The notes under the pieces were generated by a model. The model saw only the letters and a list, made by a program, of their open reading frames with translations. It ran no database searches and was not told the origin of the DNA. DNA of 64,000 nt from Antrihabitans stalagmiti. GTDB lineage: Bacteria; Actinomycetota; Actinomycetes; Mycobacteriales; Mycobacteriaceae. The first letter of the stretch is position 1, and each line of letters opens with the position of its first letter. The DNA is taken from contig NZ_JAEMNV010000002.1 of assembly GCF_016482825.1 (NCBI RefSeq), positions 682,001-746,000 of the forward strand, given 5' to 3'. Shown here piece by piece: positions 9,741 through 37,800 of the stretch. Position numbers and translations under genes: made by a program.

Positions 9741-9810
9741 CAGGAAATCCACCTCACGTTGGTACTTGTTCGAACCCAGGCATCGTAGCTGGACGGAATC
9801 CTCCTTCGGC

Positions 9811-11830
9811 TCATGCCGTCCGAAGACGATCGCGCACCGTGCTCAGCCTGTCGTCCCTGCCGCTCGCCGAAAAGGATCGCAGCAGATCACCGACGGTCCC
9901 GTGGAAGCCCGCGGCAATCCGCTCCAGCAGAACAGTGAATCGAGATACGACGCGCGCGACGGTCTCCGCATCGAACACGGCAGTCGGATAGATGAGCGCA
10001 CCCTCCACGCCGGCGGGACGGCGATCCGCGGTGTAGTGGTCGCGGATGGCGAACTCCAGATCGTGTTTGGCCCGTACCGCTGCGATGGGATAGGACGCCA
10101 AGCCGACCACACCGTCGACCACGTGCACGTCGGCAACGATGGTGTGCAGAATCAGCGTGGCGCGGAACAGCGGTTCGGACGCTGATGCGCCGTGCTCCCG
10201 CAACGCGCGAAGCAAACGTGGGTTGGACGTGTCCGGATGGGCGAAAGCGCCGAACACTACCTCGCGGACCTCGCGCAGGTACTCCGCAAGGGAGTCCGCG
10301 TCCTCGAACCGGATTCGCATCAGGACGTCGTCGGAGAAATTGCCGACGAGACCGTCGAGCCGCTCGTCGCTGCGGCCGGCGAGCGAGGTGGCGACAGTGA
10401 CATCGGCGCTTTCCCCGAAGGCACCGACGACCAGCGCGAACGCGGCCTGCAGAATCATGAACAGGCTCATTCCGCGCTGTTCGGCAAGGTCGAGAAGCTG
10501 CGCGTGCAGCAGGCCGTCCAGTGCGAACGGGATCGTCGCGCCTGCCGTGCACCGCACCGTCCCGACCGGTCGATCCGTGGGAAGATCCAGCCGAGCTGGG
10601 CGGTCCGCGAGTGTCGCGAGCCAGTACCGCAGTGCAGCGCCGGCAGGACTGTTCGCGTCCCGCTCGTCCCCGAGTTCGGCGCGTTTGTCCATGACGTAAT
10701 CGCGGTAGCGAAGCGGCAGCGCTGGCCATGTCGGCGCAACACCGTTGCGGCGAGAGTCGTAGGCCACGAGCATGTCTCGAAGCAGCGGTCCGAACGAAAG
10801 TGCGTCTCCCGAGATGTGATGCAGCACGATGACGAGGACGGTGCGATGCGGCCCGATCTCGAACAGCCGAAGCCGCAGTGGAAGCTCGATCGACACATCG
10901 AACCCCCGATGGACGAACGACTCGATCGCACTGTCGAGCGCGACCGCCGACGTCCGCACTGTCTCCAGATCCACAACGACGTCGGACATCGGGTCGACAA
11001 CCTGCGCAGGTCCGTAGTCCGTCGACGGGTACCGCGTACGCAACGGCTCGTGGCGCTCCAGCACGTCGAGTACGGCAGCTTCGAGGTGCTCGATGTCGAT
11101 CTCTTCGACGATCTCGAATGCCGCCTTCATGTTCCAGTCGCCGTTCCGACTGCCGAGGACGTCGTGCCACATCCTTTCCTGCGCGGGCGCCAACGGAATG
11201 TGCTGTGCCAGATCGTCGTTGCCGATCAGGTTTGCTGCGGGATCCTGGTTCCACTGCGCATATGCGGTGTCGCTGAGGTCCAGTGGTCGCCAGGTCGGCT
11301 GCGGTCCTGCGGCACGCTCGGCATAGGCAACCGCCAGCTCTGCTGTGAGGCCGCGCATCGAAAGTTCGTCGGCGACGATGTGGTGTGCGACGAAACCGAG
11401 CACGTACTCCGACGGTTCGGCTGCCACACCGGCACCCGCATCGGAGGCCGGTTCGATTCGAAACAGCCTCGCACGCAACGGAACTTGAGACGCGATGTCG
11501 AAACCCGTGAGGGCGAGATCGAGAAAGCGCCGGAGGAGGTCCGGTGCAGCAACGCTTTCGACCTCGAGTTCGGGAAACGCTCGGGCCGCGGCAAGCACCA
11601 CCGGATAGGGCCCGTCATAGCCGGTCGGGTAGTACGTCCGCAGCGATTCGTGTCGTTCGACGACAGCCTGCGCTGCCTCTGCCAACGCGGACACATCGAG
11701 TCGACCGCTCAGGCTTACGGCAAGCGGAATGTCGTCGATCGCCGACGCGGTGTCGAACTGGTTGGAGAACCAAGACCGCTGCTGCGCGATCGACAATGCC
11801 GAAGGACTCCGTGTTTCGTTGTCCGACAAC
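9811..11830 (-). other. NRPS3 terminal half-C plus full C domains
   Basis: The first unit (about 11815-11225) has the C-domain N-lobe, from SIAQQRSWF to a YAQW segment, but no C-lobe. The second (about 11210-9811) is complete from PLAPAQERMW to the end. Both have the two His of HHxxxDG, but the final Gly is Glu in the first and Ala in the second. A terminal C domain is known in some NRPSs to release product by cyclisation or transfer; that role is inferred here. Confidence 0.8.
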
Positions 11831-13644
11831 AGATCTGCACCAGCGGATTGCGCCAGTGCCGCGGCTGCAAATCCGGCGACCGTCGGCGCATCGAACAACG
11901 TCGGGACCAGAATTCGAATGCCCATCCTCGCTCCGAGACGGGCAACCACCTTCACCGCGGTAAGTGAATCGCCACCGAGTGCGAAGAAGTTGTCGTCGGC
12001 TCCTACCCGCGCGACACCAAGCACGTCGGCGAACACCTCCGCGACGACCTGCTCGGTCGGCGTACTCGGCAATCGGTATTCGCAGACCGGCCTGACGGGG
12101 TCGGGCAGAGCGGCTCGATCGATCTTGCCGGCTGCGGTGAGCGGAAATTCGGCGAGCAGAACAAACGTGGTTGGAATCAGCTGACTCGGTAGCCGCTCGG
12201 TTAGGTAGCGACGCAACTCGTCGAGGTTCGGCGTCGCGTTCGACGCAGCGATCAGGTACGACGCCAAGTGCGCCGCAGTCGAATCATCTTGTCGCACAAT
12301 AGTTGCCGACATTGCCACAGCCGGGAAAGTCGAGATCGCGGCATCGATCTCGCCTGTTTCGATTCGGAAGCCACGCAACTTCACCTGCGCGTCGTTGCGC
12401 GCGACGAAAGACAGAACGCCGTCGTCGTCGCGCCGCACGAGATCACCGGTTCGATACAGGCGGGCGCCAGGATCACCGTACGGATCGGCTACGAACCGGG
12501 AAGCCGTCAACGCCGACCTCATGTGGTACCCACGTGCCACACCACTACCGGCGAGGTACAACTCGCCGACCGCGCCGAACGGCACAGGCCGCAGCTTGGC
12601 GTCCAACACGTACTGCCGCACACCATGAATCGGCCCACCGACGGAGACCTCGGCACCCGCGACGAGCGGCGCGCTGATGTTGCACGCCACAGTTCCCTCC
12701 GTCGGTCCGTAGGCATTGAAGAACTGCCGAACTACGCCGGAGCCGACCGGGCGTGCCCAGGATCGAACCAACGCAGGCGGACATACGTCACCGCCGACAA
12801 CGACCACTGCCAAATCATCCAACCCGGCCGGGTTCAGCGAAGCCAGCGCCGCGGGAGTGAGGAACGCGTGGGTCACGCGCTCCTCGCGCAGCAGTTCCGC
12901 CAGGTCCGGACCCCCGAGCACGTTTGGCCCCGCAACGACCATCGTGGCTCCCGCACCGAGCACAAGCAGCCATTCCAGAATCGAAGCATCGAAACTCGGC
13001 GACGCGAAATGCAGTACGCGCGAAGCAGCGGTCACGCCCGTCCTCGTCCGCAACTCGTCGGTCAGGTTCTGCAGACCCGAGTGCGTAACGACCACACCTT
13101 TCGGCGTGCCCGTCGAACCCGACGTGTAGATGACGTAGGCAGGATGCGCCACCTGCAAGGTTCTGATTCGATCCGAGTAGCTGACAGGATGTGACGGCTG
13201 CTCGGCGAGTTCACGTCGCGAGTGTTCGTCGTCCAGCACGAACCACTCCACGGTGTCGGGCAGCGACGGTCGAACGGCAGCGATCGTGATGCCGACGCTC
13301 GCGGCGGAATCGGCGACAAGGAAACCGATCCGCTGGGTTGGATAGGACGGATCGACCGGAACGTAGGCCGCTCCCGACTTGGCAACCGCCCACAGTGCGC
13401 TGATCGAGGCGACGGATCGTGGCAACGCGACAGCGACGGAGTCGCCAGGACCTGCTCCGCGTGCGATGAGGACGCGGGCAAGCCGTGACGACGTCACGTC
13501 GAGATCGGCGTAGGTCAACGACTCCGTGTCGCACACCACAGCAGTTGCCGCCGGATCGACTTCGACTGCGGCGGAGATCAATTGCGGCGCCATCGCGACT
13601 TTCTCGCGACGCCGACCCTGGCGGGCAACCCTCTCTTTGCGCAC
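9811..13644 (-). CDS. NRPS3: A-T-(half C)-C terminal synthetase
   Basis: Last subunit of the peptide assembly line, 1,277 aa. A domain at about 20-525: ATP-binding YTSGSTG at 173-179, FDAS at 219-222, A10 Lys507. T domain with phosphopantetheine Ser560 (LGGDS). Then an N-terminal half of a C domain, about 615-805, with HHIVADE (His754, His755), and a complete C domain, about 812-1277, with HHISGDA (His942, His943). There is no thioesterase or reductase. The GTG start follows GGTGAG, and the basic N-terminal tail (about 15 residues) may contact the upstream protein. The A domain has no C domain of its own: the C for this residue is the last C of NRPS2. The A code reads DALFVGAVAK; I cannot assign a substrate. 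NRPS2 ends 77 bases upstream. Confidence 0.93.
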   Translation of the reverse strand: MRKERVARQGRRREKVAMAPQLISAAVEVDPAATAVVCDTESLTYADLDVTSSRLARVLIARGAGPGDSVAVALPRSVASISALWAVAKSGAAYVPVDPSYPTQRIGFLVADSAASVGITIAAVRPSLPDTVEWFVLDDEHSRRELAEQPSHPVSYSDRIRTLQVAHPAYVIYTSGSTGTPKGVVVTHSGLQNLTDELRTRTGVTAASRVLHFASPSFDASILEWLLVLGAGATMVVAGPNVLGGPDLAELLREERVTHAFLTPAALASLNPAGLDDLAVVVVGGDVCPPALVRSWARPVGSGVVRQFFNAYGPTEGTVACNISAPLVAGAEVSVGGPIHGVRQYVLDAKLRPVPFGAVGELYLAGSGVARGYHMRSALTASRFVADPYGDPGARLYRTGDLVRRDDDGVLSFVARNDAQVKLRGFRIETGEIDAAISTFPAVAMSATIVRQDDSTAAHLASYLIAASNATPNLDELRRYLTERLPSQLIPTTFVLLAEFPLTAAGKIDRAALPDPVRPVCEYRLPSTPTEQVVAEVFADVLGVARVGADDNFFALGGDSLTAVKVVARLGARMGIRILVPTLFDAPTVAGFAAAALAQSAGADLLSDNETRSPSALSIAQQRSWFSNQFDTASAIDDIPLAVSLSGRLDVSALAEAAQAVVERHESLRTYYPTGYDGPYPVVLAAARAFPELEVESVAAPDLLRRFLDLALTGFDIASQVPLRARLFRIEPASDAGAGVAAEPSEYVLGFVAHHIVADELSMRGLTAELAVAYAERAAGPQPTWRPLDLSDTAYAQWNQDPAANLIGNDDLAQHIPLAPAQERMWHDVLGSRNGDWNMKAAFEIVEEIDIEHLEAAVLDVLERHEPLRTRYPSTDYGPAQVVDPMSDVVVDLETVRTSAVALDSAIESFVHRGFDVSIELPLRLRLFEIGPHRTVLVIVLHHISGDALSFGPLLRDMLVAYDSRRNGVAPTWPALPLRYRDYVMDKRAELGDERDANSPAGAALRYWLATLADRPARLDLPTDRPVGTVRCTAGATIPFALDGLLHAQLLDLAEQRGMSLFMILQAAFALVVGAFGESADVTVATSLAGRSDERLDGLVGNFSDDVLMRIRFEDADSLAEYLREVREVVFGAFAHPDTSNPRLLRALREHGASASEPLFRATLILHTIVADVHVVDGVVGLASYPIAAVRAKHDLEFAIRDHYTADRRPAGVEGALIYPTAVFDAETVARVVSRFTVLLERIAAGFHGTVGDLLRSFSASGRDDRLSTVRDRLRTA

Positions 13645-13721: not shown

Positions 13722-14610
13722 CTAGGTGGCCAGCCAATCGGGAAGACTTCCCGCAAACTCCACGACGTCGTAATTTCCACCCAAACTCACGTCGGCAGCG
13801 TGTGCATTGTCACCAATTGCCACTACGGCAACCAAATCCGGTAGCTCAGGTGCGGTGACCCCGCTCAACAGCTCGACGCTCGCGAAAAGGTGTGTCACCC
13901 AATCCTGTTCGAGTACATCGCCGAGATCGGAGCCGTCGGATTCGACCTCCGCGACGACCAAGGCAGCGCCGGTGGTCCCCGCGAGCACGAACTCGACGAC
14001 AGCCGCTGGCGAATTCACCCCGCCGACATAAAGCAGACGTGAGTCGTAGTCGACGGCCAAGGTGGCACGGGCACGATCGACCACCGTAGCCAGCGAGTCG
14101 AACGACACGACCAGACCTGTGTCGGTTCCCGCCCCGACGACAATTGCCGGATCGTCTCCGCGCAGTGGCCTGAGGCGGTTCGCGTAGGTGATCGGTCGTG
14201 CGGACTGCTCGGCAATCTGCGTTGCCGTCTCGTCGTCGTCGAGAACCACCCACGTTGTCACACCGGCCGGGCCGGCTACACCGTCGAGCGACGCCCGGTA
14301 CGCGGCCCTTGTTACTCCGATGGGCGTGCCGACTCCACTCGACGCGACCTCCGCGTGCGCAGGATCCACAGCGACGATTGCCGCGCCGGCTTTCAACACC
14401 GCCCAGCCTGCGATCACCGAGTCGACGCTCCGATCCAGTGCGACCAGCACACCCGACCCCGGACCGCTGCCGTGTTCGATCAGCACGCGCGCCAACTGCG
14501 ACGACCGCTGATCCAGTTCCTGATACGACACCTCGTCTTCGCCGATGGCCAATGCCGGTGCGTCGGGACCGTCTTCGACAGCCGACACCAACTGCTGAGT
14601 CAGCGTGGTT
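13722..14610 (-). other. Pseudo-A domain at C-terminus of NRPS2
   Basis: About 295 residues after the last C domain. The start resembles a real A domain (VSYQELDQRSSQLARVLIEHG; AVLKAGAAIVAVDP). The ATP-loop position reads VVGAGTDTGLVVS instead of YTSGSTGxPKG, the FDxS pocket motif is gone, and the protein stops where NxYGPTE should be, so motifs A6-A10 and the catalytic Lys are absent. It cannot adenylate. It is homologous over its full length to the end of NRPS1. Confidence 0.85.
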
Positions 14611-17600
14611 CCCGACGACGATTCGGTCGGCGCCGCAGTTGCCGTGACGGCGCGATCGGCTGCCGCCAGCTGTTCCCGTTCGGCAGCGTCGAAGATGTCG
14701 ATGTCACCGACGGTTGCATCCGGGTTGTTTCCGACGGTTTCGAAAATGCGGACCAGTCTGCGGCCGAAGCCGGCCGCTGTCGACTCGTCGAAGAGATCCT
14801 TCGCGTAGGTGAAGATCGCGTCGAGTTCGCCGGGGCTGCCGTCCTCGTTGTGCCTGCCCTCGATCGTCAGCTGCAGGTCGAACTTGGCTGCGAGGTCGCC
14901 GGTGTCCAGCGCGCTGACGCTCAGGCCCGGCAATTCGAGATGGACCGGTTCGAGGTTCTGGAAAGCCATCGCGACCTGGAACAGCGGGTGATACGACTGC
15001 GCGCGGGCCGCACCGAGTTCGTCGACGAGCTCCTCGAAGGGCAAGTCGGCGTTGGCAAACGCGGACAGGTCGGCGTCGCGAGCCTGATCGACGACCGCGC
15101 TGAAGCCCGCGGCAAGGTCGATCCGGGTCCGCAGCGTCAACGTATTGACGAACATGCCGACCAGATCGTCGAGCGCTTGCTCGCCTCGACCCGCGATCGG
15201 GGTGCCGATCGAGATGTCCGTCGTACCCGACATCCGCGCCAACATCACGGCAAGACCGGCGTGCACGACCATGAACAGCGATGCGTTGTGCGCGTGGGCA
15301 ATTGCGACCAACTGTGCATGCACCTCGGCAGGCACGGTGAACGCGACCGACCCACCAGCCATCGTCGGCTGTACCGGACGCGGCCGATCGCTCGGCAACG
15401 CCAACTGATCGGGCGCTCCCGCGAGGGCCTGCTTCCAGTACGCCAGCTGCGCGGCCGCAATCGAGCCCTCCTGGTCGACCGTGCCGACCAGCTCTCGTTG
15501 CCAGAGTGTGTAATCCGCGTACTGCACTTCGAGCGGACTGCCTTCCGGCGCTCCTCCAGCCACACGCGCGGCGTAGGCAACCATCATGTCCCGTGCAAGC
15601 GGTGCCATCGAAGCACCGTCCGCCGAGATGTGATGGACAACCATCGCGAAGACATACTCGCCTGGCGCTACCCGGTAGAGCTTCGCCCGCAGCGGTGCAC
15701 GTTCGGCAACGTCGAAGCCGCGCGAGACCAACTCGACGATGCTCGGATACACATCGGAGTCGTCGATGACGGACAGTTCCAGTCCGGCAATCACCTCCGC
15801 TGCCCCGAGGATGTCCTGATACGGCACAACATCTTCGACGGGATACCTCGTGCGCAACGACTCGTGTCGTTCGATCACGTCACCGATCGCGAGTATCAGC
15901 GCCTCGACGTTCAGGTCACCGGACAGCTTGATCGCCAGCGGGATGTTGTACGCCGCCGAATCCGGATCGATTCGGTTCAACACCCACATCCGTTGCTGCG
16001 CAAGCGACAACGGCACGTGGTCGGGCCGATCGACCCGCGCCGGGCCGCGCCGGACGCCACCACCCGATCCTCGGACGACCCGCGCCGCGAGCGCCCCCAC
16101 CGACGGCGATTCGAACAACTCACGTACGCCGAGTTGCGCGTCGAGTGCTTCGTTCAGTCTGGCGACCGCCCGCGTCGCGACGAGCGAGTTACCGCCGAGG
16201 GAGAAGAAGTCGTCGTCGACCCCGACCCTCTCCGCGCCGAGCAGTGTCGCGAACACCTCGGCGACAGTCTGCTCGATCGGCGTTCCCGGCTCGCGGAACA
16301 CCGTGTCGCTCACGAACTCCGGTGCAGGCAGCGCGTTGCGGTCGAGCTTGCCGTTCGGTGTCAGCGGCAAAGCCTCCAGTGCGACCAACACATCGGGAAC
16401 CATGTATCCGGTCAGGAAGCCGCCGACGAAAGTACGAAGTTCGGCGGTATCGATCGCCGCGTGACGTCCCGCCTCGGGCACGACGTACCCGATGAGACGT
16501 TGGCCTGCATGCTCGTCCGTTCTGATCAACGCGACAGCTTGCGCGATCCCGTCGTAGCGCAGCAAGGCGGATTCGATTTCGCCGAGCTCGATCCGGAATC
16601 CGCGCAGCTGCACCTGCTGGTCACTGCGGCCCGCATACTCCAACTGCCCGTTGGCATTCCAGCGGGCGACGTCGCCGGTGCGGTACATCCTGGTTCCGGC
16701 AGGTCCGAACGGGTTCGCGACGAAGCGGCCGGCGGTCAGTCCTGTTCGTCCGAGATAACCACGGGACAACTGCTGCCCCGTCACGTACATCTCGCCGGGC
16801 ACGCCGACGGGGACCTGCCGCAATCGTGAATCGAGAACGTAGACACCGAGTCCGGGCAGGCCGGTTCCGATGACACTCGACGACGTCTCCTGCGCCAGTT
16901 TGCGATCCAACTCGAGATAGGACACGTGGACCGTTGTCTCGGTGATGCCGTACATGTTCACCAGACGCGGAGCATCGTCCGCGTGCCGTTCGTACCAGCG
17001 CCGCAGCTGGCGTAGGTCGAGCGCTTCGCCTCCGAACACGATGTAACGCAGCGCAAGATCGTCGGACGGATTCGCACGATCCGCTTCGGCAAGCTGATAG
17101 AACGCCGACGGCGTCTGGTTGAGCACCGTCACCTGTTCCCGACGTAGCAGGTTCAGGAACTGATCGGGCGAGCGTGAGGTGAGGTAGTCGACGACAACGA
17201 CCGATCCGCCGGTCGCGAGCGCCGCCCAGATCTCCCACACCGAGAAGTCGAACGCGAAGGAGTGGAACAGCGTCCATACATCGTTTTCGTCGAAACCGAA
17301 GGCGGGCTGTGCATTCGAGAACAACTCGACAACGTTGCGGTGCGCTACCGCAACACCCTTCGGCACACCCGTCGATCCCGACGTGTAAATGACATATGCC
17401 GTGTTGTCCGGTCGGAGCGGACGCAACCGCTCGTCGTCACTGATCACGGCCGACGAGAATTCCGACAACTCGAGCGAATCGATGGCAAGAGTTGGGACAT
17501 CCGTCGACGGCACCTTCTCCTGCTCCGACGACGTCGTCAGGATGCATGCCGGTGCGGCATCGGACAGGACGAATTCCAACCGCTGCTTCGGGTACGTCAC

Positions 17601-20600
17601 GTCGATCGGCAGATAGCCTGCGCCCGTTTCGATGACGGCAAGCAGCGCGACGATCAGCTCGGCAGACCGTTCGATTGCGACGGCGACCAGCGTCTCAGGA
17701 CCGACGCCCTCGGCAATCAGCCTCCGCGCCAACCGGTTGGCTTGCGCGGACAGCTCTCCGTAGGTCGTCGACGTTCCGTCGAATCGAACTGCAACAGCGT
17801 CGGGACGAAGTCGAACCTGCTCGTCGATCAGTTCGACCAGAGTCGCTCCCATCGCGCCGTGTGCCGCGCTAGGTCCAGGTAGCAAAGCCAGTTCGGCCGC
17901 ACTCAGCAGCTCGATATCGCCGACGGCCCGACGCGATTCGGCTGCGACAGCACCCAGAATGGTGGCGAATCGCTGCGCGAAGGTACTGACCGTCTGCTCT
18001 TCGAACAGGTCTGTCGCATAACTGATCACACCGGACAGTCCGGAGCCTGCGATGTCGTCACCGACTTCGGCGAGTGTGAACTGCAGATCGAATTTGGCTA
18101 CAGGCACGTCGAATTCGACGCCCGACACGGCCAGACCCGGCAGGTCCAACGAAGGTGACGACATGTTCTGGAACGCCAGCGCGACCTGGAACAGCGGATG
18201 CCGCGCGGCGGAACGATCCGGATCGAGTTGTTCGACCAGCCGCTCGAACGGCACATCGGCGTGCCCGAAGGCCCGAACGTCGGTCTCACGAACGTCGGCA
18301 AGCAACGCCTCGAACGGAGCGGCGGGATCGATGTCGGTGCGCAACACCAGGGTGTTCACGAACATGCCGACAAGTCGGTCGAGTTCCGCCTCGCCACGGC
18401 CCGCGATCGGGGTACCGATCGTGATGTCTCGTGTTCCGGACAGCCGCGCAAGGAGTACAGCCAGCGCCGCGTGCACGACCATGAACAGCGTCGAGTTCTG
18501 TTTGCGCGCAATCTCGTTGAGCCGCTGATGCACCTCCGCAGAGATCTCGAAGGCAACGTTCGCACCGCGGTAGCTCGAGGTTGCAGGGCGCACGTGATCG
18601 GTCGGCAGATCGAGTTGCTCGGGCAGCTCGGCCAACTCGGAGGTCCAGTAGGACAGTTGCTCGGCTAGTAGCGATCCTTCGTCGGTTTCGTTGCCGAGCA
18701 GAGCGCGCTGCCACAGCGAGTAGTCCGCGTACTGCACTGCGAGCGGCGGCCATTCGACGTCACGACCATGCGACCGCTCGACATACGCGACCATCACGTC
18801 GCGCGTCAACGGCGCCATGGAGAAGCCGTCGGCCGAGATGTGATGCACAACGAACACGAGCACGAACTCGCGCTCCGAGCACTGCAGCAGCTCTACTCGG
18901 AACGGCGGCGCCACAGTCACATCGAAGCCCGCAGAGATGAGCGAGGCGATACGAGCAGGTACGTCCGCTTCGGCAACGGCCACCACATCGAGCTGCGGAT
19001 GCACATCGGAGCGCGGTGAAATCCGTTGCCAGCCTTCACCGTCGAACTCCGGATAGCTGGTCCGCAGCACTTCGTGTCGATCGACGAGATCACCGATCGC
19101 GAGCCGCAGTGCGTCGACGTCCAAATCACCGGACAGCCGGACCGCCACCGGAATGTTGTACGCAGCGGACTCCGGCTCGAAGCGATTGAGGAACCACATC
19201 CGTTGCTGCGCAAGAGACAACGGCACCCGGTCGGGGCGCGGCTGCGCCGTCAGCGGAGTTCTGCCACCGGATCCGGAATGCTTCTCGACCAGCGCGGCAA
19301 GCCTGCCGACAGTCGGACCTTCGAACAGCACTCGCACCGGCACCTGCGTGTCGAGCGCAGCGCCGACCCGAGCTGCCACGTGCGTCGCGAGCAGGGAGTT
19401 GCCGCCAAGCGCGAAGAACGAATCGTCGACTCCGACCCGCTGCAGCCCGAGCACCTCGGCGAACACGTCCGCGATCGCTTGCTCCACAGGCGAACTCGGC
19501 GCCCTGAAGGCGGCCTCGCTGACGAAAACCGGCGCAGGCAGCGCTTTTCGATCCAACTTGCCGCTCGGATTCAGCGGCATCGCATCGAGCACAAGCAGGG
19601 TCGACGGCACCATGTAGACCGGCAGATCGCCTGCGATGGCGTCGGTCAGCGCTGCCGGATCGAGATCGGCACCGGCATCAGCGACGACATAGCCGACCAG
19701 CTGATCACCCAGCGCCGAATCCGCATGCACGATGACGGCGGATTGCCGCACACCCGATTGCCTGAGCAGAGCCGTTTCGATCTCACCCAGCTCGATTCGC
19801 AGACCACGAACCTTCACCTGGAAGTCGGTGCGCCCGAGGTACTGCAGGTCACCGGCTGCACTCCAGCGCACCAGGTCACCGGTCCGGTACAGGCGAGAAC
19901 CACTCTCTCCGTACGGGTTCGCCACGAACCGATCGGACGTCAGGTCAGCCCGACCGAAGTAGCCGCGCGCAACCTGGCGACCAGCGAGATACAACTCTCC
20001 CGCGACACCGACCGGAACCGGATGCAGGCGCTCGTCGAGAACCAACGCCTGTGCGTTCCAGACCGGTCCGCCCATCGGCACCGACGACACGGTGTCGTCG
20101 TCGACAGCTCGATGGGTCGCATGGACGGTGAACTCCGTGGGGCCGTAGAGGTTGAATGCCGCGGCAGAACTGACTCGGCGTAGCGCCGCAACCGTCGCAC
20201 CGGGAAGTGCCTCACCGGCAATCAACACCGTTCGAAGCGAATCGATCTGTCCGGCAGCGACACTCGCTACGAACACCGACAGCATCGACGGCACGAACGA
20301 TGTCATCGTGACACCTTCGGCGGCGATGACGTCGGCGAGATAGACGGGATCACGGTGGCCGTCGGGGGTCGCAACAACAAGTCGACCACCTGTGACGAGC
20401 GTTCCGAACAGTTCCCAGACCGAGACGTCGAACGTCGACGGAGTCTTCTGCAAGACCACGTCGGACGATCCGAGTCCGTATTCGGTTGTGATCCAGAGCA
20501 ACTGGTTGACCACCGAGCCGTGGCTGACAGCCACGCCCTTCGGCCGGCCAGTGGAACCCGACGTGAAGATCACGTATGCGGCGTTCGACGGCCGCAGGGG

Positions 20601-23600
20601 CGCGAGCCGATCACCGTCGGTGAGCACAGCATCGGAGAACGCAGCGAGATCGACGGTGTCGACGCTGATGACAGGAACGTCGACCGCGACTGCCACACCG
20701 TCTGCGGCGGTCGTCAACACACAGATCGGTGCCGCCGTATCGAGGACGTAACCCGTGCGCTCGGCGGGATGGTCGGGGTCGAGCGGAACATAGGCGCCAC
20801 CGGCTTGCAACACCGCATACATCGCGACAACCATGTCGACCGAGCGCCGCATACCAAGTGCCACAAGAGATTCCGGTCCGACACCCTGCGATATCAGGTA
20901 CCGCGCCAGCCGGTTCACACGAGCGGCGAACTCGGCGTAGGTGAGCGACTCCGTACCGAACGTCACCGCAACCGCATCGGGTGTGGCCGCGACCTGCTTG
21001 TCGAACAACGACACCACAGTCGCAGCCTCGTCGACAGCGTGCTCGGTCGCGTTGAAGCCCTCGAGCACCAGCGCCCGCTCGTCGGCGTCGAGCAACTCGA
21101 TGTCACCGACCGCGACGGCAGGATTCTCGACAACGGTCTCGACGATCCGCAGCAGCTTCGCACCGAGCGCAGCAACGGCGGACTCGTCGAACAAATCGTT
21201 CAAGTACTGGAACGTGAATTCGAGCTCTGCACCGAGCACTGCGAGCAGGGTCAGCGGGTAGTGCGTCACCGTCGTCATGTCGACGCCCGTGACGCGCATA
21301 CCCTCGATGGAGTTGGCGGCCGCAATGCCTGCGGTGTCGACGGGGTAGGACTCGTACACGAGCAGAGTGTCGAACTCCGCTGCTGCGCCGACCGCGTCAT
21401 GGATCTGGGCAAGGCCGACATACTGGTGCGCCAGCAGGTCGGACTGATCACGTTGCAGACCGTCGAGTGTGTCAGCCGCCGAGCGGCCCGAATTCAGTTG
21501 CACCCGAACCGGAACCGTATTGATGAACAGACCGACCATCGACTCGACACCGGCGAGTTCGGGCGAACGTCCCGAGACGGTGGTGCCGAAGACGACGTCG
21601 TCGCGACCGGTGTAGCGGCCGAGCAGTAGCCCCCAGACGAACTGCACGACCGTGTTGACCGTGACCCCACGATCCGCTGCGAACGCGGTGAGCCGCGACG
21701 TTGTCGCCGAATCGAGCGCGAAGGTGTACTCGCCTGAGAGCGTTGCGATTTCACGTCCCGGCTCTACCGGCGCCAACGATGTCGGCTCGACGACCCCCGC
21801 GAGGGCGGTACGCCAGGCCTCGAGGGATTCGGCCTCGTCCTGCGCGGCGAGCCAGGCCAGGTAGTTGCGGTAGGACCGCACGGCAGGCAACACAGTCGCG
21901 TCGCCCGACGTTGCGTAGAGGACCAAGAGATCCTTCATCAGCAACGGCATCGACCAGCCGTCGAGGAGGATGTGATGGTTCGTCACTATCAGGCGGAAGT
22001 TGCCCTCGCCCAACGACACCATCGTGAACCGGATGAGCGGCGGACTCGCCAGATCGAAGCGATCCTTTCGATCCTGCTCCAGGATGTCTTCGAACTCCGC
22101 GTCCTGGTCTGCTGCACTGCTCAGATCCACTTCAGCCCACGGGATGGCTATGGCTACGGTTTCGAGCACGATCTGAACGGGCGACCCACCGGAACCCGTG
22201 ACGAACGCTGTCCGAAGATTCGCGTGCAGATCGAGCAGAGCCTGGCCTGCCGTCCTGAGGCGCTTTCGATCGACGGCGCCTTCGAGCTTCAGCACTACCT
22301 GCGACGTGTAGACGTCCACAGAGGCCGCGGCGAGAGAGGCGTGGAAGAGGAAGCCCGCCTGCAACGGTGAGAGCGGCCAGATGTCGCTTACTGCGGGGAA
22401 CTGCTTCTCCCACAGTTCGATATCGGTCTGAACGGTCCGCGCGAGCGGAACGTCCGACGGTGTCAGTCCTGCCGCACCCGGCAGTTGCGCGGCCGTGACG
22501 ATCGACTCGAGTGCAGTCCGCCAGAGTGTGGCGAGTTCGTCGACCGCCGCTTCGTCGAGCAGTGTCGAGGGATAGGCGAACGTCGCCGAAAGCGAGCCGC
22601 CGACCACGATCGCGTTGATGTCCACAGCGGCCATCGCGGGCATGTCCGAATCCGGCAGCGCCGGTACATCTCCGAGGTCCGATGCCGGAATCCAGCCCAA
22701 CTCTCCGACGCCCTCCGGCAGATCCGCTGCGGAGATTCGGCCGAGATAGTTGAACCCGATCTGGCCGGGAACCCTGTCGGGAAGCGACGGTGCGGAGTCC
22801 GCATCGAGGTACCGCAGCAAGCCGTAGCCGATGCCGTTGTCCGGAACCACACGCAGTTGCTCCTTGACCGCCTTCAGCGCAGTCGCAGCCGAGAGTCCAC
22901 CCGCGAGTGCATCGTCGAGGTCGATCCCGTCGACGTCGACGCTGACCGGATACACGGACGTGAACCAGCCGACCGTGCGGGAGATGTCGGCGCCGGGCGC
23001 GACGCCCTCCTCACGACCGTGCCCTTCGAGCCTGATCAGTGCTGCCGTCGAATCGACCCCTCGATTTGCCCGCCACTTCGCCAACGCGAGACCCAATGCG
23101 GCAAGCAGTGCATCGTTGACTCCCCCGCGGAACGCTTCCGGCACCACGGTGAGCAAGGCCTCGGTGACGTCGGCCGCCAGCTGCACCCGAACGGATTGCA
23201 CCGTCGCCGCAGTATCGATCAGCGGATCGAAGGCTCTGTCACCGAGAGCCGGGTCGGCAGTCGCGGAAATCTGCTGCCACACCGGCAGTTCTGCCCTGCG
23301 AGCAGGTTCTTGCGCGGCGTCGGCGAGTGCATGGGCCCAGCGGCGCACCGACGTGCCTACCGCTGGCAACGTCGGTGTCGCTCCGGCACTGATCTGCGCC
23401 CATGCCGCCACAAAATCCGGGATCAGGATGCGCCACGACACACCATCGACGATGAGGTGATGAGCAACGACGATGAGTCGGCCCTTGCCACCGAGCGCGT
23501 CGGAAGGATCGAGCCACACGAACTGCAGGACAACCCCTGCCGCCGGATCGAGCCGCGTGAGAGCAGCCTCCGTCGCTTCGGCCGCGAGCGACTCGAGGTT

Positions 23601-26600
23601 GTCGGCACCGAATTCGACGCGCTGCACCAAACTCGCAGCCTCGACCGACCCGACCGGCAACACCTCGAGGTGCCACTGCCCGTCCGCGTCCGCGAACAAG
23701 CGCGAGCGCAACATGTCGTGATGGTCGACGACTGCGCCGATCGTCGACACAACGCCGTCGCTGTCGATACCGGCCGGAAGTTCCAGTGTCAAAGTCTGAT
23801 TGAACCGATCGAATCTGCCACGGTCGACCATGTACCGCACCACTGGGAGCAGCGGCAGCTCTCCAACGCCCCCGCCGTCGAGTTCGGCGAGCACAGTCGC
23901 AGGACCAGCGTCGGCCGCGGACGCCACGGCAGCAAGGCCCGCAACAGTGCGGTGCTCGAACACATCCCGCGGACTGAAGACAATGCCACGAGCCTTGGCG
24001 CGTGAGACAACCTGGATCGACACGATACTGTCGCCGCCCAACGCGAAGAACGAATCGTCGACACCGACCCGTGGCAAACCGAGTACCTCGGCGAACACCT
24101 CGGCGATCGTCTGTTCGGTCGGATTGCGCGGGGCCCGGAAGTCGGTCGCACCTTCGAATACAGGTGCCGGCAACGCTTTACGGTCGAGCTTGCCGCTGGG
24201 GTTCAGGGGCATCGTGTCGAGCACAAGCACCTTCGCAGGCACCATGTAGCCGGGTAGCTCGCGCGCAACGTCGTTGATCAGTGCGGTCGGGTCGAGGTCG
24301 ACGCCCGCCGCCGCGACGACGTAGCCGACCAGTTGGTCGCCGATGTGCTCGTCGGAGTACACGATCACCGCGGCCTGACGGACGGAATCGTGCCGCGAGA
24401 GTGTCGTCTCGATCTCACCGAGCTCGATCCGCAGTCCACGGACCTTCACCTGGAAGTCGGTGCGGCCCAAGTACTGCAGCGCACCGGCCTTGTTCCAGCG
24501 CACCAGGTCGCCGGTTCGGTAAAGCCGCGAGCCTGCGGGTCCGAAGGGGTTGGCGATGAAACGGTCCGACGTCAGGTCGGGTCGGCCGTAGTAACCGCGC
24601 GCCAATTGCGTTCCAGCCATGTACAGCTCACCGGCAACACCGACCGGAGCCGGCCGAAGTCGTTCGTCGAGCACAAGGGCTTGCGCGTTCCACACGGCAC
24701 GGCCGATCGGAACCGCGCCGTGTTCGGAACCGTCGATCGCGTAATGCGTTGCATGCACGGTGAATTCGGTCGGGCCGTACAGGTTGTAGGCGCCAGCAGA
24801 GGACACGGCCCGCAACTCGGCAACGGTCGATTCTACCAAGGCTTCGCCCGCGATCAGCACTGCTCGAAGCGATATCACCGATTCGGCCGACACATTCTCG
24901 GCGAATACCGACAACATCGACGGCACGAACGACGTCATCGTGACGCCCTCTGCCGCAATCACTGCTGCAAGATAGTCGGGATCGCGGTGGCCGTCGGGGG
25001 CAGCAATAACCAGCCGACCGCCGGTGATCAACGTGCCGAACAACTCCCACACGGACACATCGAAGGTGACCGGTGTCTTCTGCAGCACGACATCCGCAGG
25101 CCCGATGCCGTACTCCGCCGTAATCCAGAGCAGTTGATTGACAACCGAAGCATGGCTGACCGCAACACCTTTGGGCCGACCGGTCGAACCCGAGGTGAAC
25201 AGCACATACGCCGAGTTGGCAGGCCGCAGCGGCGCGATACGGTCCGCGTCGGTTACCGGCCCAGGCGAGAAGGTCGATACGTCCAGTTCGTCGATGTGCA
25301 GAACCGGCACATCGGTCTCAGCGGCGAAACCGTCCGCGCTGACAGTCAGCACGCAGACCGGTGCCGCTGTCTCCACCACGTATCCGGTTCGTTCGGCAGG
25401 GTGATCAGGATCGAGCGGCACGTACCCACCGCCGGCCTTCGCAACGGCATACATTGCGACGAGCAGTTCGGTCGAGCGTCGCATACCGAGTGCGACGAGA
25501 GATTCGGGTCCGACACCGATCGAAATCAGATGACGCGCAAGCTGATTCACGCGCTTGTCGAACTCGGCATAGGTCAGTGATTCCTGACCGAACGTCACTG
25601 CAACGACGTCAGGGGTAGAGCTCACCTGCGCATCGAACAACGAGACGATGGTCGCGGCCGGATCGACAGGGTTCGCGGTCGCGTTGAACTCGTCCACTAC
25701 GAGAGCGCGCTCCGCTGCATCCAGGAGATCGATATCGGCAACTGCCACAGCGGGATCCGCGACGATTGCTTCCAGAATCCGAGTTACCTTCAACGCGAGT
25801 GCGACGACGTCGGACTCGTCGTACAGGTCGCTCAGATACTGGAAAGTGAATTCGAGTTCGCCGCTCAGCACGGCCAGCAAGGTCAGCGGGTAGTGGGTGA
25901 TCGTCGTCATGTCGACACCGGTGATCGCCATACCGTCGATGGTGTTCGCCGCCGCAATTCCTGCGGTGTCCACCGGATAGGACTCGAACACGAGCAACGA
26001 ATCGAACTCCGCGCCGACGCCTGCTGCCGCATGTATCTGCGCGAGCCCGAGATAGTGGTGGCCGAGCAGATCGGCCTGTTCGGCCTGCACCCGCGACAGC
26101 AGGTCCGCCGCGGACTCGGTCGGCTGATATTGCACGCGAACCGGAATCGTGTTGATGAACAGTCCGACCATCGACTCGACACCCGACAGCTCCGGCGGTC
26201 GACCGGAAACCGTTGCACCGAAAACGACGTCGTCGCGGCCGGTCAGGCGGCTCAGCAGAATTCCCCACACCACCTGCACGACGGTATTGACCGTGACACC
26301 GAGCTCGGCAGCGAGCGTCACCAGCCGCGCGGTCGTCTGCTCGTTCAGCTCGAAGCGGTATTCACCTGAGAGACTGGTGATTTCGCGGCCACGCTCGATC
26401 GGAGCGACCATGGTCGGGTCGGTGACACCCGCCAATGCGGAGCGCCACGTGTTCACCGACGCGTCGAGATCTTGATCGGCGAGCCATGCGAGATAGTTGC
26501 GGTACGGGCGAACCGGCGGCAGAACCGACGAGTCACCTGACGCCGCATACAGGAACAGCAGGTCCTTCATCAGCAGAGGCATCGACCAGCCGTCGAGCAG

Positions 26601-29600
26601 AATGTGATGGTTCGTCACAACCAGGCGGAAGTCGCCGCCACCGAGCGTCACCAGCATAAATCGGATCGCGGGCGGGTCGGCAAGGTCGAATCGCGTCGTG
26701 CGGTCGACGATCAGCAGGCGTTCGAACTCGGCGTCACGATCCGGATGGTCGGTCAGATCGACTTCGGTCCAAGGGATCTCGATCTCACTGAGGACGATCT
26801 GCACAGCCGAACCGGATTCGTCCGCGATGAAGGCCGTCCGCAGGTTCGGGTATCGATCAAGGACCGCCTGCCCTGCGTTCCGCAGCCTGTTCGAGTCGAC
26901 GATTCCCTTGAGCGCCAGTACAACCTGCGCGGTGTAGACGTCGACGGAGGTGGCGGCAAGCAGCGCGTGGAACAGCAGTCCGGACTGCAGTGGCGCGAGT
27001 GGCCAAGCGTCGACAAGAGCGGGGAACTGCTCTTCCCATTGATCGATCTCGCGTTGCTGAGCGCCTTTCAGCAGCAGATCCGACGGCGTGCGACCACCCG
27101 CGACCGGGTCGGCGACATGCGTGGCGAGCGCCGAGAGCGCTTCGACCCACAGCTCCGCGAGACTCTGAACCTCCGATTCGGCGATTGCGCCAACGGGGTA
27201 CGCGAAGGTGGCACGCAACGCCGCACCGGCTTCGGTTTCGGTGACGATCGCGTTGATGTCGATGGTCTTGTTCGCCGGCATGTCGGCGTCGCCCGGAGCA
27301 TTCAAACTGCCGAGGTCGCCCGCTGGCAGCCAGCCGAGATCGCCCATACCCGAAGGGATATCGCCCGCCGAGATTCGACCAAGGTAGTTGAAGCTGATCT
27401 GCCCCGAACCCTTGCCCGACAACTCGGCCCCGGTTGCCTCGTTGAGGAACCGCAGCATGCCGAATCCCATGCCCGAGTCCGGCACCGAGAGCAGCTGCTC
27501 CTTGACCGCCTTGACCGCAGTACCGACCGCATCAGCGCCCGCGAACGCGGCGTCGAGGTCGATGCCGCCGACGTCGAGCCGGACCGGGTACACACTGGTG
27601 AACCAACCGACCGTGCGCGAAAGGTCCGCGCCGGGAACGACGTCTTCTTCGCGGCCATGACCTTCCAGTTGCAGCAACGTCGACGTTTCCGTTACGCCGC
27701 GCTTGCGCCGCCACTGTGCAACCGCCAGCGCAAGCGCTGTGACGAGGCCGTCGTTGACGCCGCCGTAGAAGCGGTCGGGTACCACCGTCAGAACTGCTTT
27801 GGTCACCTCGACCGGCACGGCGACCTCGAGCCGCTCGACAGTCGACACCGTATCGATCGCGTTGTCGAACGGTCGACTACCCAGTGTGGGGTCGGGGCCG
27901 TCGAGGATCGACTGCCACAGCGCAAGTTCGGCTGTCCGTGTCTGACTCGCTGCTTCTTCGGCCAGGCCGTGTGCCCAACGGCGTAGTGACGTTCCAACCG
28001 GCGCCAATTCCGGTCGTGCGCCTGCGGACACCTGTGCCCATGCTGATACGAAGTCCGGCACCAGGATTCGCCAGGAAACTCCGTCTACGACGAGGTGGTG
28101 CGCGACGACCAGCAACCGCCCCGACCTGGTCGCGCCGAAGTCCAGCCACACGAACTGCACCATCACGCCGGCTTCGGGATCCAGCCTGCCGAGCGCCGAG
28201 TCGAACTCCGCGGAGGCTCTTTCGGCGAACTCGTCGTCGGAGGTGCTCTCCGACAATTCGACCCGGTGCACCCACGGACCGACGTCGACGGCGTTGGGTT
28301 CCGCGACGTCCATTCCCCAGCCACGTTCGTCGGAGATCAGGCGCGAACGCAGCACATCGTGCTTGTCGACAACCGCTGCGATGGTCGACACGACGCCGAT
28401 CCGGTCGATTCCGGCGGGCAGTTCCAACGGAATCGTCTGGTTGTAGCGCGAGTAGCTGCCGCCGCGTTCGACCAGCAATCGCCCGAACGGGAGCAACGGC
28501 ATCCAGCCGACGCCGCCACCGCTCAGCTCGACCAATTCCTTTGCAGCAGTTGCCGAGTCGGCGGATTCGGCGACTGCCGCGAGACCAGCGACGGTGCGAT
28601 GCTCGAAGACGTCGCGCGGTGTGAAGACAACTCCACGTGCCTTCGCACGTGACACGACCTGGATCGACACGATGCTGTCGCCGCCGAGTGAGAAGAACGA
28701 GTCGTCCACGCCGACCTGGCTCACCCCGAGCACTTCGGCGAACACGTCCGCAATGGTCTGTTCGACGGGCGTGCGCGGCGCCCTGAACTCGGCTTCACTG
28801 GCAAAAACCGGCGCAGGCAAAGCCTTTCGGTCGAGTTTGCCAACCGGCGTGAGCGGCACTTCGTCGAGCACCATGATCGCCGATGGCACCATGTGCCGCG
28901 GCAGGATCTCGGATACGAAGGTGATCAACTCGTCGGTATCGAGTGTATTCCCATGTGGTGCAAGTACATACGAGACCAGCGATACCGCGCCGGCGTCGCT
29001 GGTATGCCCGACCGTGACAGCGAACTCGACCTGGTCGTGCGTAGACAAAGCTGCGTCGACTTCGCCGAGTTCGATTCGGAAACCACGGATCTTCACCTGG
29101 AAGTCGTTGCGTCCCATGTACTCGATGACCCGGGAGGTCGTCCCGTCCGTCGACGTTTCGGTCACCCGAACCAAGTCGCCGGTCCGGTACATCCGGGCCC
29201 CTGGCTCCCCGAAAGGGTTGGCAACAAATCGTTCTGCGGTGAGACCCCAGCGCCCGTGGTACCCCTGAGCCAGCTGAGCACCGGCAAGATACAGCTCGCC
29301 CGCCACGCCGAGCGGTACGGGACGCAGTCGGTGATCGAGCACGAGCGTCGCCACGCCTGGAATGGCCGACCCGATCGTGATCGGCTCGCCCGGTCGCAAC
29401 GGTGCGCTGCTTGTGGCGAGGATCGTTGCTTCGGTCGGTCCGTAGCCGTTGTGGAAATCGCGTCCCGAGGACCATCTGGCCACAAGTTCGGGACCGAACG
29501 AATCGCCTGCGACGACGACAACGCGCAGATCCTCCAATCCGGCCGGATCTACGGTCGCAAGGGCGCCCGGGGTGATCAACACATGACTGACCCGCTCGCT

Positions 29601-30407: not shown

Positions 30408-30617
30408 CGACCACACCGGAAGATGTTGCGGGAGTGGAAAGACTGCATCGAGTTGAGTCACCTTTCTGGAACGCACAGGTATGGACGCCAACCGGGCCCC
30501 CATAAGCCTCTTAAAGGCTACAGACCGGCTCCAACGCGGGGGCTCGCTTGGTCCTCGAGTTGTATCGCTGCCGGTCACCGCGGTGTTGCAAGACAAGGGT
30601 GTGAGATAGGTCCACAG

Positions 30618-30928: not shown

Positions 30929-30943
30929 GCGCTGGTGCTGTGG

Positions 30944-33962: not shown

Positions 33963-34843
33963 CTACTGCAGAGACTCGCCGAAACCTTCCGTTACGTCGG
34001 TCCACACGGTCCGACCTTCCGACCAGCGGTCGACGTGTTCCTGATCGGCATCGCCCTCGGTCAGGACGACGACGGTCAAGTCCTCCAATCCATCCGGATC
34101 GGCGGACGCGAGCGCGACCGGCGGCAGGAATGCGTGGGTCACCCATTCGTCGGCAAGCAGGTCGGCGAGACCGTCGGCATCGTTCGGGTCGCCGATCACG
34201 GCAACTGCTCCGGATGTGGACGCGAGCAGGAACTCGACCAATGCGCCGGGTCCGGCAGGCGGACCGACCAGCAACGTTCGCGACTCGTAGGTCACCGCGT
34301 ACTTTTCGCGTGCCCGTGACGCGAGCGATGCCAATTCACCGTGGCTGACAACCGTTCCGGCAGCGTCGGTTCCGTCGACCACCGCCGCGGGGTGAACCGC
34401 GAGCAATGGCCGCAAGCGGTCCGCGTAGGAGACCGGATGCCCAGCGGCAGCGGCAACCTGCTCAGCCACCGTCGCATCGTCGATGACGAACCACTCGACC
34501 GAATCCGGCAGACCCGACCGAAGCGAACTGTCCGTCAGTCCGACGAGAGCGCCGGACGCTCCGAGAACGGTTGCGAGTGCGTCCGCCGGACGTTGGGGAT
34601 CGATCTGCAGGAAGGCCGCACCCGTCTTCGCGATAGCCCACAGTGCAGTCACCGAATCAACCGACCGTGGCAATGCAACCGCTGCAACCGTTTCCGGTCC
34701 GAAGCCCCGCTCGATCAAGACACGAGCCAACTTCGACGAATCCTCGTCCAGTTCCTGGTACGAGATTTCGCGACCGTCGACCGCGAGTGCAGGTGCTTCC
34801 GGATCTTCTTCCACGATCTCGGCAAGCAGATGCGGCAGCGTCT
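33963..34843 (-). other. Pseudo-A domain at C-terminus of NRPS1
   Basis: About 290 residues after C9. It begins like an A domain ([35 protein letters not shown]). The ATP-loop position reads [13 protein letters not shown], the FDxS pocket motif is missing, and the protein ends at the place of NxYGPTE, so A6-A10 and the lysine are absent. The last 60 residues are acidic. It aligns end to end with the tail of NRPS2. Confidence 0.85.
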
Positions 34844-37800
34844 GCGACGACAACTGCGCGCTGACATCGGGTGCAGGCGCGGTGGCCGAACCGGTGTCGC
34901 CGAGAATCGCGTTGCGTTCTGCTTCGCCGATGATCTCGACGTCGCCGACCAACCCGCTCGGATCCGCAACGAGTTCGTCCAGAACCAGCACGAGGCGAGC
35001 GGAAAGCGCATCGACATCAGCCCGCGTGAACCTACTCCCCTGGTACTTCAGCGTCAGCTCGATCGTGGTGTCCGCGGTGACCAGCAACGTCAACGGATAG
35101 TGCGTCGCATCGCTGACGCCGACTCCGGTCACCGTCATGCCGTCGATCGAACTTGCCTGTGTCAGAGCATCTTTGTCGATCGGGTACGACTCGAACACCA
35201 TCAACGTGTCGAACAGGACGCCGACTCCGGCTGCCCGCTGAATATCCGGGAGGCCGATGTAGTGGTGATCGAGTAGATCCGCCTGCTCACCCTGAACCCG
35301 CTGCAGCAGATCGCTGATCGAGACGTTCTCGTCGAGTTGGACGCGGATCGGGATCGTGTTGATGAACAACCCGACCATCGATTCGACGCCCGTCAGTTCA
35401 GCCGGTCGACCCGACACCGTCGCACCGAAAACGATGTCTTCACGACCGGTCATCCGGCTGAGCAGAATCGCCCATGCCGTCTGCACCAAGGTGTTGACGG
35501 TGACGCCGACCGATGCGCCGAGCGCAGCAAGTTCGGCTGTCTTCTCTTCCGGCAGTTCGGTGATGACCTTGCCGATCTCGGCATAGGTTTCCGCGCCACG
35601 AGCCGGTGCGGCGAGCAGCGTCGGCTCCGATACACCGGCGAGCGCCTGTGCCCACGCCTGCAGCGAATCGTCCTTGTTGCGCGCCTCGAGCCAGGCGAGG
35701 AAGTTGCGGTACGGCGCGACTCGCGGCAACGCCGACGCGTCACCGTGGAGCGCGTACAACATCAGCAGATCCCGCATCAGTAGCGGCATCGACCAACCGT
35801 CGAGCACGATGTGGTGGCTTGTGATCGCGAGGTGGTACGTCTGCGCCTCGGTCTGCACCAACGTGAACCGCATCAGCGGTGCAGCGGCCATGTCGAAGTG
35901 CGTCGCCTGATCCTGCGCAAGCAAACGGCGCAGTTCCGGCATCCGATCCTCGTCCGACAGCTTCGTCAGATCGAGCTCGCGCCAGGGCAATTCGACCTTG
36001 TCGAGGACAACCTGCATCGATTCGCCACTTGCGTCGGTGACGAACGCGCTGCGCAGGTTCGGGTAGCGATCGACGATTGCCTGTGCGGCAGTGCGCAATC
36101 GAACGCTGTCGACCGTCCCGTTGAGGTCCAGCACCGCCTGCATCGTGTAGACGTCGACGGTCGACGCCGTCATCATCGCGTGGAACAGCAGACCGGACTG
36201 CAACGGCGAGAGCGGCCACACGTCGCCGAGGGACGGGTACTGCTGCTCCCAGAGCTCGATATCGGTCTGCTCGACGTCGACCAAGGGCAGATCCGACGGC
36301 GTGAGTCCACCGACTTCAGTCTGGCCGGCGTGCGTCGAAAGTGCTTCCAGCGCAGCGGTCCACAGTTCTGCGAACTCTTGCACGTCCGCACGCGAAATCA
36401 GTCCAGCCGGGAAGGCGAAGCCTGCACCCAACCGCGGACCGTCCGGCCCGTCGCTGACGATGGCGTTGATATCGATGACGCCGTTGGCAGGCATGTCGGC
36501 ATCCATGTCGACCGACAGCTCACCGAGATCACCCGAGGGCGCCCAACCGATATCGCGCAGCTCGGCAGGCACTTCGCCTGCGGACACGCGACCGAGGTAG
36601 TTGAAGCTGATCTGTCCGCCCGCAAGCTCTTTCAGCTGATGCGAGGTCGACTCGTTCAGGTACCGCAGCAGGCCGTAGCCGATGCCCTTGTCCGGCACCG
36701 AAAGCAGCTGCTCCTTGACGGCCTTGACGGCGGTTCCAGCGGCAACTCCGCCCGCGAAGGCATCGGTGATGTCGATGCCCGCGAGATCGAGACGAACCGG
36801 GTAGGCGCTGGTGAACCAGCCGACTGTCCGCGACAGATCGGCACCGGGCACGACACCTTCTTCACGACCGTGCGCTTCGAGCTTGATCAACGCCGAACCC
36901 GTTGCGACGCCGCGAGTTGCACGCCACTTCTCGACGGCCATCGCCAGTGCGGTGAGGAGTCCATCGTTGACGCCACCCCGGTACAGCGTCGGCAGTTCGG
37001 TGAGCAGCGACTGGGTCGCCGCCGTCGACAGCTGCACCTGCACCCGATCGACGGTCGAGAACGTGTCGACCGTCGGATCGAAGGCACGATCGCCGAACAA
37101 CGGATCGTCGACGCCACCGACCGAGCGCCAGAAGGCGAGCTCGGCAACACGTTTCGGCGTTTGTGCCTCGTCGTGCAGTGCGTGCGCCCAGCGACGCATC
37201 GACGTGCCGTTGACTGGCAGCACAACATTCTGGCCGGCATTCAGCTGCGACCATGCGACGGCGAAATCCGGGATCAGGATGCGCCACGAAACACCGTCGA
37301 CGACGAAGTGATGCGCGGCGATGACCAGAATGCCGCTGCGTTCGGACCCGAAGTCCAACCACACGAACCGCATCATCGAGCCGGCGACCGGATCGAGACG
37401 ACGCATCGCGCCGTCCAGTTCCGTCGTTGCAAGTTCGGTCAGCACGGCCTCGTCGATATCTGCCGGGAAGCTGACCCGATGGATCAGTCCGTCGACGTCG
37501 ACCGACCCACGTTCGAGAGCTTCGAACGTCCAGCCGTCGTTTTCGAGCGTCAGCTGGGACCGGAGCACGTCGTGGTGATCGAACACGGCCGCAATGGTTT
37601 TCACCAGGGTTGCGCGGTCGATGTCACGCGGTAATCCGAGCGCCATCGACTGCGAGAACCTGTCGAACGAGCCGGAGCCACCAAGGATCGACGCCATGAT
37701 CGGCGTCAGCGGAATGTCGCCGACACCGCCGCCTTCGAGTTCGACCAACTGCGCGGGTGCGTCGTTCGCGTCGTGGCGCTTGGCAACCTCCGCAAGCCCG

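Follow-up and report, generated by a model that had tools for sequence, protein, structure and literature searches.

Truncated A domains as candidate docking elements at split C|A boundaries of NRPS assembly lines in Antrihabitans and its relatives

The NRPS assembly line encoded in the stretch of DNA that we analyzed, a window of 64,000 nucleotides from Antrihabitans stalagmiti (contig NZ_JAEMNV010000002.1, positions 682,001 to 746,000 of the forward strand), is divided among separate proteins at points that lie between a C domain and the A domain of the same module, and at these points the upstream protein carries a truncated, A-like C-terminal tail. We consider it probable that such tails are A-derived C-terminal docking domains of C|A split sites. 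The feature is old and family-wide, and therefore wider than was first noted, and we did not find a connector of this A-derived kind described.

Anatomy of the two tails

Three NRPS genes, NRPS1, NRPS2, and NRPS3, lie consecutively on the minus strand of the window, with the following features.

33963 to past the window edge, minus strand: NRPS1, whose frame spans 14,997 aa when followed through the genome
34902..36221, minus strand: final C domain of NRPS1, with an HHIVLDG motif
33963..34856, minus strand: tail 1, the pseudo-A end of NRPS1 (297 aa and a stop codon), a homolog of tail 2
13722-30704, minus strand: ORF of NRPS2 (13722..30407 from the probable ATG at 30407)
30309..30407, minus strand: Arg-rich leader of NRPS2, 33 aa
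28836..30275, minus strand: the A domain that opens NRPS2, candidate partner for tail 1
14667..16022, minus strand: last C domain of NRPS2, HHISADG motif intact
13722..14610, minus strand: tail 2, the pseudo-A end of NRPS2 (295 aa and a stop codon), which is net acidic and lacks A3, A4, and A5
9811..13644, minus strand: NRPS3, the subunit facing tail 2 (Arg-rich leader, A, T, half C, C)
13591..13644, minus strand: 18-aa Arg-rich leader that immediately precedes the A domain of NRPS3
12124..13560, minus strand: complete A domain in NRPS3, candidate partner for tail 2

The start codon of NRPS2 was picked through comparison with Antrihabitans cavernicola, and the domain order of the protein is A-T-E-C-A-T-E-C-A-T-C-A-T-C-pseudoA. 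Since NRPS1 and NRPS2 both end in C-pseudoA and NRPS2 and NRPS3 both start with a leader and a complete A domain, a module is split between C and A at each of the two boundaries.

An earlier note on this DNA had described NRPS2 as ending, like NRPS1, in a C domain and a truncated A-like domain, and both endings are confirmed by Pfam, by TIGR01733, and by a model built from the genome's own A domains. Pfam AMP-binding matched the NRPS2 end at profile positions 4 to 84 of 384 alone (protein E 4.5e-15) and the NRPS1 end at positions 3 to 269 (E 1.5e-21), and TIGR01733 (409 positions) matched tail 2 at 1 to 252 and tail 1 at 1 to 259. On the genome's own A model, which has 479 positions and A5 at about 281 to 288, the end point is 264 for tail 2 and 285 for tail 1, so that the description of the two tails as stopping at the same point is correct to within ~20 positions of that model. 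The tails are 45% identical to each other over query positions 2 to 269. A pseudo-A tail amounts to the N-terminal ~55 to 60% of an A domain, without its catalytic motifs, and examination with PF00501 and TIGR01733 showed that neither window tail is a functional A domain, as A3, A4, A5, and the C-terminal subdomain (A8/A10) are all missing; the tails are A-derived pseudo-domains. Seven Antrihabitans tails have the A1-A2 region and scattered later residues in common, with consensus motifs such as TYADR, ESRT, and WVTH (29 tails were also aligned).

A 3.2-kb insertion (30705-33962) separates NRPS1 from NRPS2 in this window, at a place occupied by ~130 bp in A. cavernicola, and tail 1 is retained although the two genes are no longer adjacent. 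The insertion holds a DUF222/HNH ORF (30944-32308, minus strand), a second ORF (32340-33602, minus strand) that matches nothing in Pfam and, judged by eye, resembles a membrane protein, and short direct repeats, likewise seen by eye, near 30750-30960. At the other end of the line, NRPS3 closes with half a C domain (model positions 1 to 173 of 445) and then a full C domain (9850-11787), after which comes a putative esterase gene (8679-9752, minus strand). By eye, the NRPS3 proteins of A. cavernicola and Antrihabitans stalactiti have more modules and a thioesterase-like end.

Tails and their neighbors across relatives

At this locus, the tail 2 ortholog is an open frame in all four genomes of Antrihabitans, a genus that NCBI assigns to Nocardiaceae (this one, A. 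cavernicola, A. stalactiti, and Antrihabitans sp. YC2-6), and tail 1 is long in three of the four, with a short form instead in A. stalactiti. An A-derived tail is thus present at 8 of 8 C|A boundaries of the locus in the four genomes (7 long, 1 short).

For a wider census, we collected 79 unique tails from loci L001-L218, judging uniqueness by the last 80 residues; loci L069-L218 had been found through a profile search of 401 family genomes together with a scan of named genomes. To count as a tail, a piece had to reach the end of its frame within 70 aa and to lack A3, and the loci were fetched mostly as best tail matches, so that the absence of A3 and the common end are partly selected. An A-first subunit lies directly downstream on the same strand, at a distance of -28 to 529 bp, in 76 of the 79 cases (including L204, which was added by inspection). 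The three exceptions are tail 1 of the window, with its 3.2-kb insertion, tail 2 of A. cavernicola, which is next to an inverted NRPS3, and a tail that lies 97 bp from a contig end. In A. cavernicola (L058/L060), NRPS3 is on the strand opposite NRPS1 and NRPS2, a local inversion beside tail 2.

No tail of the 79 has an A4 or A5 motif; A3 is also absent from all 79, as the tail rule itself prescribes. The match to the A model ends at a median position of 260 (range, 234 to 288) of 479, and the mean net charge in this census is -24.9 for the tails versus -6.3 over the N-terminal 290 aa of the A domains that they face. The 76 paired tails come from Nocardia, Rhodococcus, and up to six further genera, among which there may be overlap, and Aldersonia and Antrihabitans are among the named tail-bearing loci. 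A class-wide sample of 394 genomes gave five matches at E 1e-65, a threshold that more distant tails could escape, and all five belong to the same family group. We rejected a genus count of tail bearers from the 401-genome profile search because its threshold also admits ordinary A-first domains. Outside the tail counts, being excluded by the tail rule, stands a less trimmed tail in Hoyosella sp. YIM 151337 (L114), which matches the A model at 2 to 210 plus 303 to 389. The subunit opposite this tail is A-first and lacks an Arg-rich leader, and the tail is possibly an intermediate.

C domains ordinarily sit against the N-terminal portion of an A core. A C domain is found just upstream in 68 of the 68 tails that have at least 400 aa in view, with the HHxxxD(G/A) motif in 66 of them, and what the tails keep is the N-terminal portion of A, the part that comes after a C domain. 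These facts would suit a dead A stub that was kept after the module split to stabilize or orient its own C domain and that makes no contact with the next subunit, and a parallel exists in module 13 of the glidonin synthetase, which has an A remnant (A*) and whose non-C domains are said, in the available text of the report, to stabilize the protein (PMC10587159). We nevertheless regard such a stub as rather unlikely, one reason being that the terminal C domain of NRPS3, a subunit with no next subunit, has no tail.

Origin and two classes of long tails

An A-domain tree was built from 130 rows, comprising 37 tails, 45 A-first domains, and 48 internal A domains, thinned from 179 rows at 80% identity. 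All 37 long tails fall into one clade, apart from all working A domains (branch 0.46, SH-aLRT 99); the exact root of this clade is weak. A second tree, of 56 rows, recovered the clade again (18 of 18 tails), and in it the 18 group with 8 A-first domains (95%) and not with the A domains that follow a C, which is not the affinity expected of a stub left behind its own C domain. AU tests reject a sister relationship of tail 2 with NRPS3-A1 (delta lnL 103, p 1e-5) and of tail 1 with NRPS2-A1 (delta lnL 278, p 2e-77). The earlier note had proposed an alignment and a tree with the A domains as a means of recognizing recent independent truncations, and that outcome is absent: because there is one tail clade and because the AU tests reject the sister relationships, tails 1 and 2 are not recent independent truncations. 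Judged by these trees, the long tails are of single origin and old.

Tails 1 and 2 lie in different parts of the tail clade of the 130-row tree, which splits into an alpha class on the tail 1 side (9 rows) and a beta class on the tail 2 side (28 rows). The A domains facing these tails belong to clade N1 in 5 of 5 alpha pairs and to clade N2 in 20 of 21 beta pairs, 11 tails having no partner row in the tree. The single beta misfit is the pair of tail 2 and NRPS3 in this window, the A domain of NRPS3 having an ambiguous place in the tree. Matching clades of this kind would be expected from class-specific pairing and equally from co-inheritance of whole boundaries. The suggestion that the divergence of the tails would allow each to recognize its own partner is therefore sustained in part, in that there are two old classes with matching partner clades, but a mirror tree, strong over 53 pairs, gave no tail-specific excess in the 45 pairs of one C type. 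We dropped the mirror-tree correlation as support for pairing, since its tail-specific effect is gone when the C-domain type is held constant.

A short form of the boundary

The first boundary of A. stalactiti, which is without a long tail, has a different anatomy. NRPS1 ends there in a C domain plus an A fragment of ~100 aa, and NRPS2 starts with a comparable fragment, followed by an ordinary A domain, and has no basic leader. In the loci of this short type (L242-L271 and L282-L285), homologous A fragments of ~95 aa stand on both sides of the C|A split. Among the 30 best of them, the short tail is at the frame end in 30 and a homologous fragment is at the next N terminus in 29, the one miss being a disrupted frame in a 79%-complete genome; both sides are present in four of five further split loci, and the fifth (L286) has no NRPS start within the ~2.4 kb in view. 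The arrangement that characterizes a docking domain, a C-terminal element opposite a defined N-terminal partner subunit, was thus found for 76 of 79 long tails, for 29 of 30 short ones, and in 4 of 5 additional short-type loci. A stub serving its own C domain leaves the homologous partner on the downstream protein of the short type unexplained.

Profiles of the short tail and of the N-terminal fragment (12 rows each) match each other with a probability of 99.7 (E 5.6e-27), each aligns to the long-tail profile at ~1e-7, and conserved motifs occur in both short elements. When short elements were tried against Pfam, three of four gave no family and the fourth gave an irrelevant match at E 0.067. 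A short-element match, counted in any place and not as a boundary, was found in 104 of 301 family genomes, and in an order-wide sample of 249 genomes there were three, all in the same family group.

In seven loci (L275-L281), one short element lies between C and A inside a single chain of more than 11,000 aa, apparently a fused form of the short boundary. The short element can exist without a partner, since these seven loci carry a single copy in one chain. Of five fused loci tested, the first 66 residues of the element are nearer to the short tail (sTail) in all five and the end is nearer to the N-terminal fragment (sFrag) in four, with small margins. Such fused C-s-A forms, and the leanings of their two ends, could be produced if the matched A pieces were handles by which subunits fuse, split, or swap through homologous recombination, with docking secondary or absent. 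We think this highly improbable as the reason for the elements, because selection on future recombination would be weak and conserved protein motifs would need a reason at the level of the protein.

Constraint on the tails

Comparison of tail 1 with its counterpart in A. cavernicola gave a dN of 0.16 and a dS of 1.44, a ratio of ~0.11, the corresponding values being ~0.11 for its C domain and 0.125 for its last A domain. In eight other tail comparisons, in which silent sites are near saturation, pN/pS was 0.53 to 0.61 for the tails versus 0.32 to 0.50 for C and 0.29 to 0.44 for A. The tails are faster than C and A by a pN/pS difference of 0.08 to 0.26 in eight of nine comparisons and slightly so in the ninth. 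In view of the dN/dS of ~0.11 and the higher pN/pS, the tail is constrained but is evolving faster than its neighbors. The view that two such ends in one pathway argue against random decay is borne out, as the tails are open, constrained, and not recent independent truncations.

The faster evolution of the tails is also what might be seen if they were leftovers of gene fission, in which a duplicated A start split one gene into two and the remnant has no present function. Such a duplication and fission would be expected to leave a homologous piece of A at either side of each break, and fused forms with a single piece exist. We judge a relic of this kind to be quite improbable, because the frames are open and dN/dS is near 0.11 in the one unsaturated comparison, because the tails of several genera form one clade, and because both short elements have conserved motifs.

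Predicted contact of tail and partner

If the tails are docking domains, they could act as follows. The upstream chain ends in C-pseudoA, and the downstream chain opens with a basic leader followed by a full-length A domain to which the tail is homologous. The acidic pseudo-A and this A domain would associate as a pseudo-dimer, and the A-T unit of the downstream protein would thereby be kept close to the C domain, for which it provides the aminoacyl-T acceptor. A shorter variant of the same idea, with A fragments of ~95 aa on both sides, would operate at other C|A splits.

At about 30 boundaries (29 to 30), both genes are in one reading frame, and reading through the natural stops yields a tail-linker-leader-A chain; 27 such rows were aligned. 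For the boundary of Aldersonia, which is orthologous to that between tail 1 and NRPS2, AF2 gave a pTM of 0.79 and a mean pLDDT of 77 for the cognate pair alone, as an artificial covalent read-through. The tail in this model consists of alternating helices and strands, and the linker and the leader are disordered. The pTM estimated for this construct is 0.49 to 0.58 without a fixed contact and 0.77 with one; the value obtained is above the expectation for two unconnected domains, and a contact between tail and A domain is thus predicted. A tail that stays free of the next subunit, as a stub for its own C domain would, should not reach so high a pTM in this model. A beta-class C-tail-leader-A chain from N. 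elegans (1199 aa, 22 rows, covalent read-through, cognate pair alone) gave a pTM of 0.57, which fits either one fixed interface of three (0.55 to 0.65, pseudoA:A) or none with moderate error (0.45 to 0.58), and this prediction does not replicate the Aldersonia result. Of the contact with the downstream subunit that the earlier note had proposed to look for by structure prediction, we can therefore say that it is predicted at one orthologous boundary but is ambiguous in N. elegans. A Foldseek search with the Aldersonia model returned, among the best 50 of 1864 matches, single A domains or long alignments at an rmsd of ~20 or more.

The mean charge of the basic leader over 25 aa is +6.3 on subunits without an adjacent tail (28 leaders) versus +7.0 (64 leaders), figures in which the regular expression misplaced several leaders and in which the "unpaired" set includes NRPS2 of the window, NRPS3 of A. 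cavernicola, and the short-type start of A. stalactiti. The idea that the Arg-rich leader is a docking peptide is weakened, since A-first subunits with no tail next to them carry it too and since the model shows it as disordered. In loci L135, L137, and L144 and similar Nocardia loci, a conserved A-first NRPS start carries a MDTARRSARGGRRRRSGSP-like leader, and the gene directly upstream is not a tail-bearing one.

Relation to known docking systems

COM pairs are short helices between a T or E end and a C start, TubC_N-like domains are N-terminal beta-hairpin docking domains before the first catalytic domain, PAX/RXP systems consist of a specific short peptide at the C terminus and a fold at the N terminus, and both the PAX/RXP and the TubC_N-like docking domains differ in fold and size from the A-derived tails. 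PAX/RXP-type and beta-hairpin (TubC_N-like) domains are, like the tails, paired terminal elements at subunit boundaries. A Pfam scan (E 0.1) found no TubC_N-like docking domain at the starts of NRPS2 and NRPS3, which have an Arg-rich leader instead. What we found also differs from a COM pair, in that the boundary is C|A and the long element is ~290 aa of alternating helices and strands.

The docking review PMC9113145, in its available text, names COM and PAX types as the NRPS-only docking classes and names no NRPS docking type for the C|A boundary. The COM domains named there are, like these tails, C- and N-terminal elements that order separate NRPS subunits, but here an A-derived element of 290 aa (or 95 aa) follows C and the next protein starts with A. 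The same text describes split-module docking in trans-AT PKSs, where a boundary inside a module is likewise rejoined by a docking pair; the elements there are helix bundles or dehydratase-docking elements and are not A-derived as here. Nonfunctional A* remnants are reported for glidonin module 13 and for kutzneride in the accessible part of PMC10587159 and, like the tails, are dead A-derived pieces of an NRPS with a noncatalytic role. The glidonin A*, as described there, is internal and keeps the C-terminal part of A, whereas the tails are protein-terminal, keep the N-terminal part, and face the next subunit. The mycobacterial glycopeptidolipid synthetases Mps1/Mps2 had been considered as members of the tail family on the basis of subunit sizes (PMC3537567); this was dropped, locus G292 being a different multisubunit line, the last subunit of which ends in a TE-like stretch (by eye). 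Across titles and abstract starts of open papers in PMC, we found no report of A-derived docking elements.

Implications for large assembly lines

A more general reading, to which we give about an even chance, is that the long and short boundaries belong to a family-wide docking code, in which homologous A-derived elements at the end of one subunit and the start of the next would pair like the halves of a dimer. The code would have a long form (pseudo-A plus intact A, with at least two old classes) and a short form (95 aa on both sides), and boundaries would open or close by gain or loss of one copy. Under such a code, the classes of the long form could prevent confusion between the two boundaries of a pathway. 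With two classes and a short form, small constructs allow a direct test of partner specificity, and docking of this kind would supply new building blocks with which NRPS proteins could be linked between C and A. If the tails do dock, they would represent a new class of NRPS docking module, placed at a boundary within a module (C|A), they would show that a catalytic domain can become a connector, and they would explain the order of subunits in the very large assembly lines of Nocardia, Rhodococcus, and their relatives.
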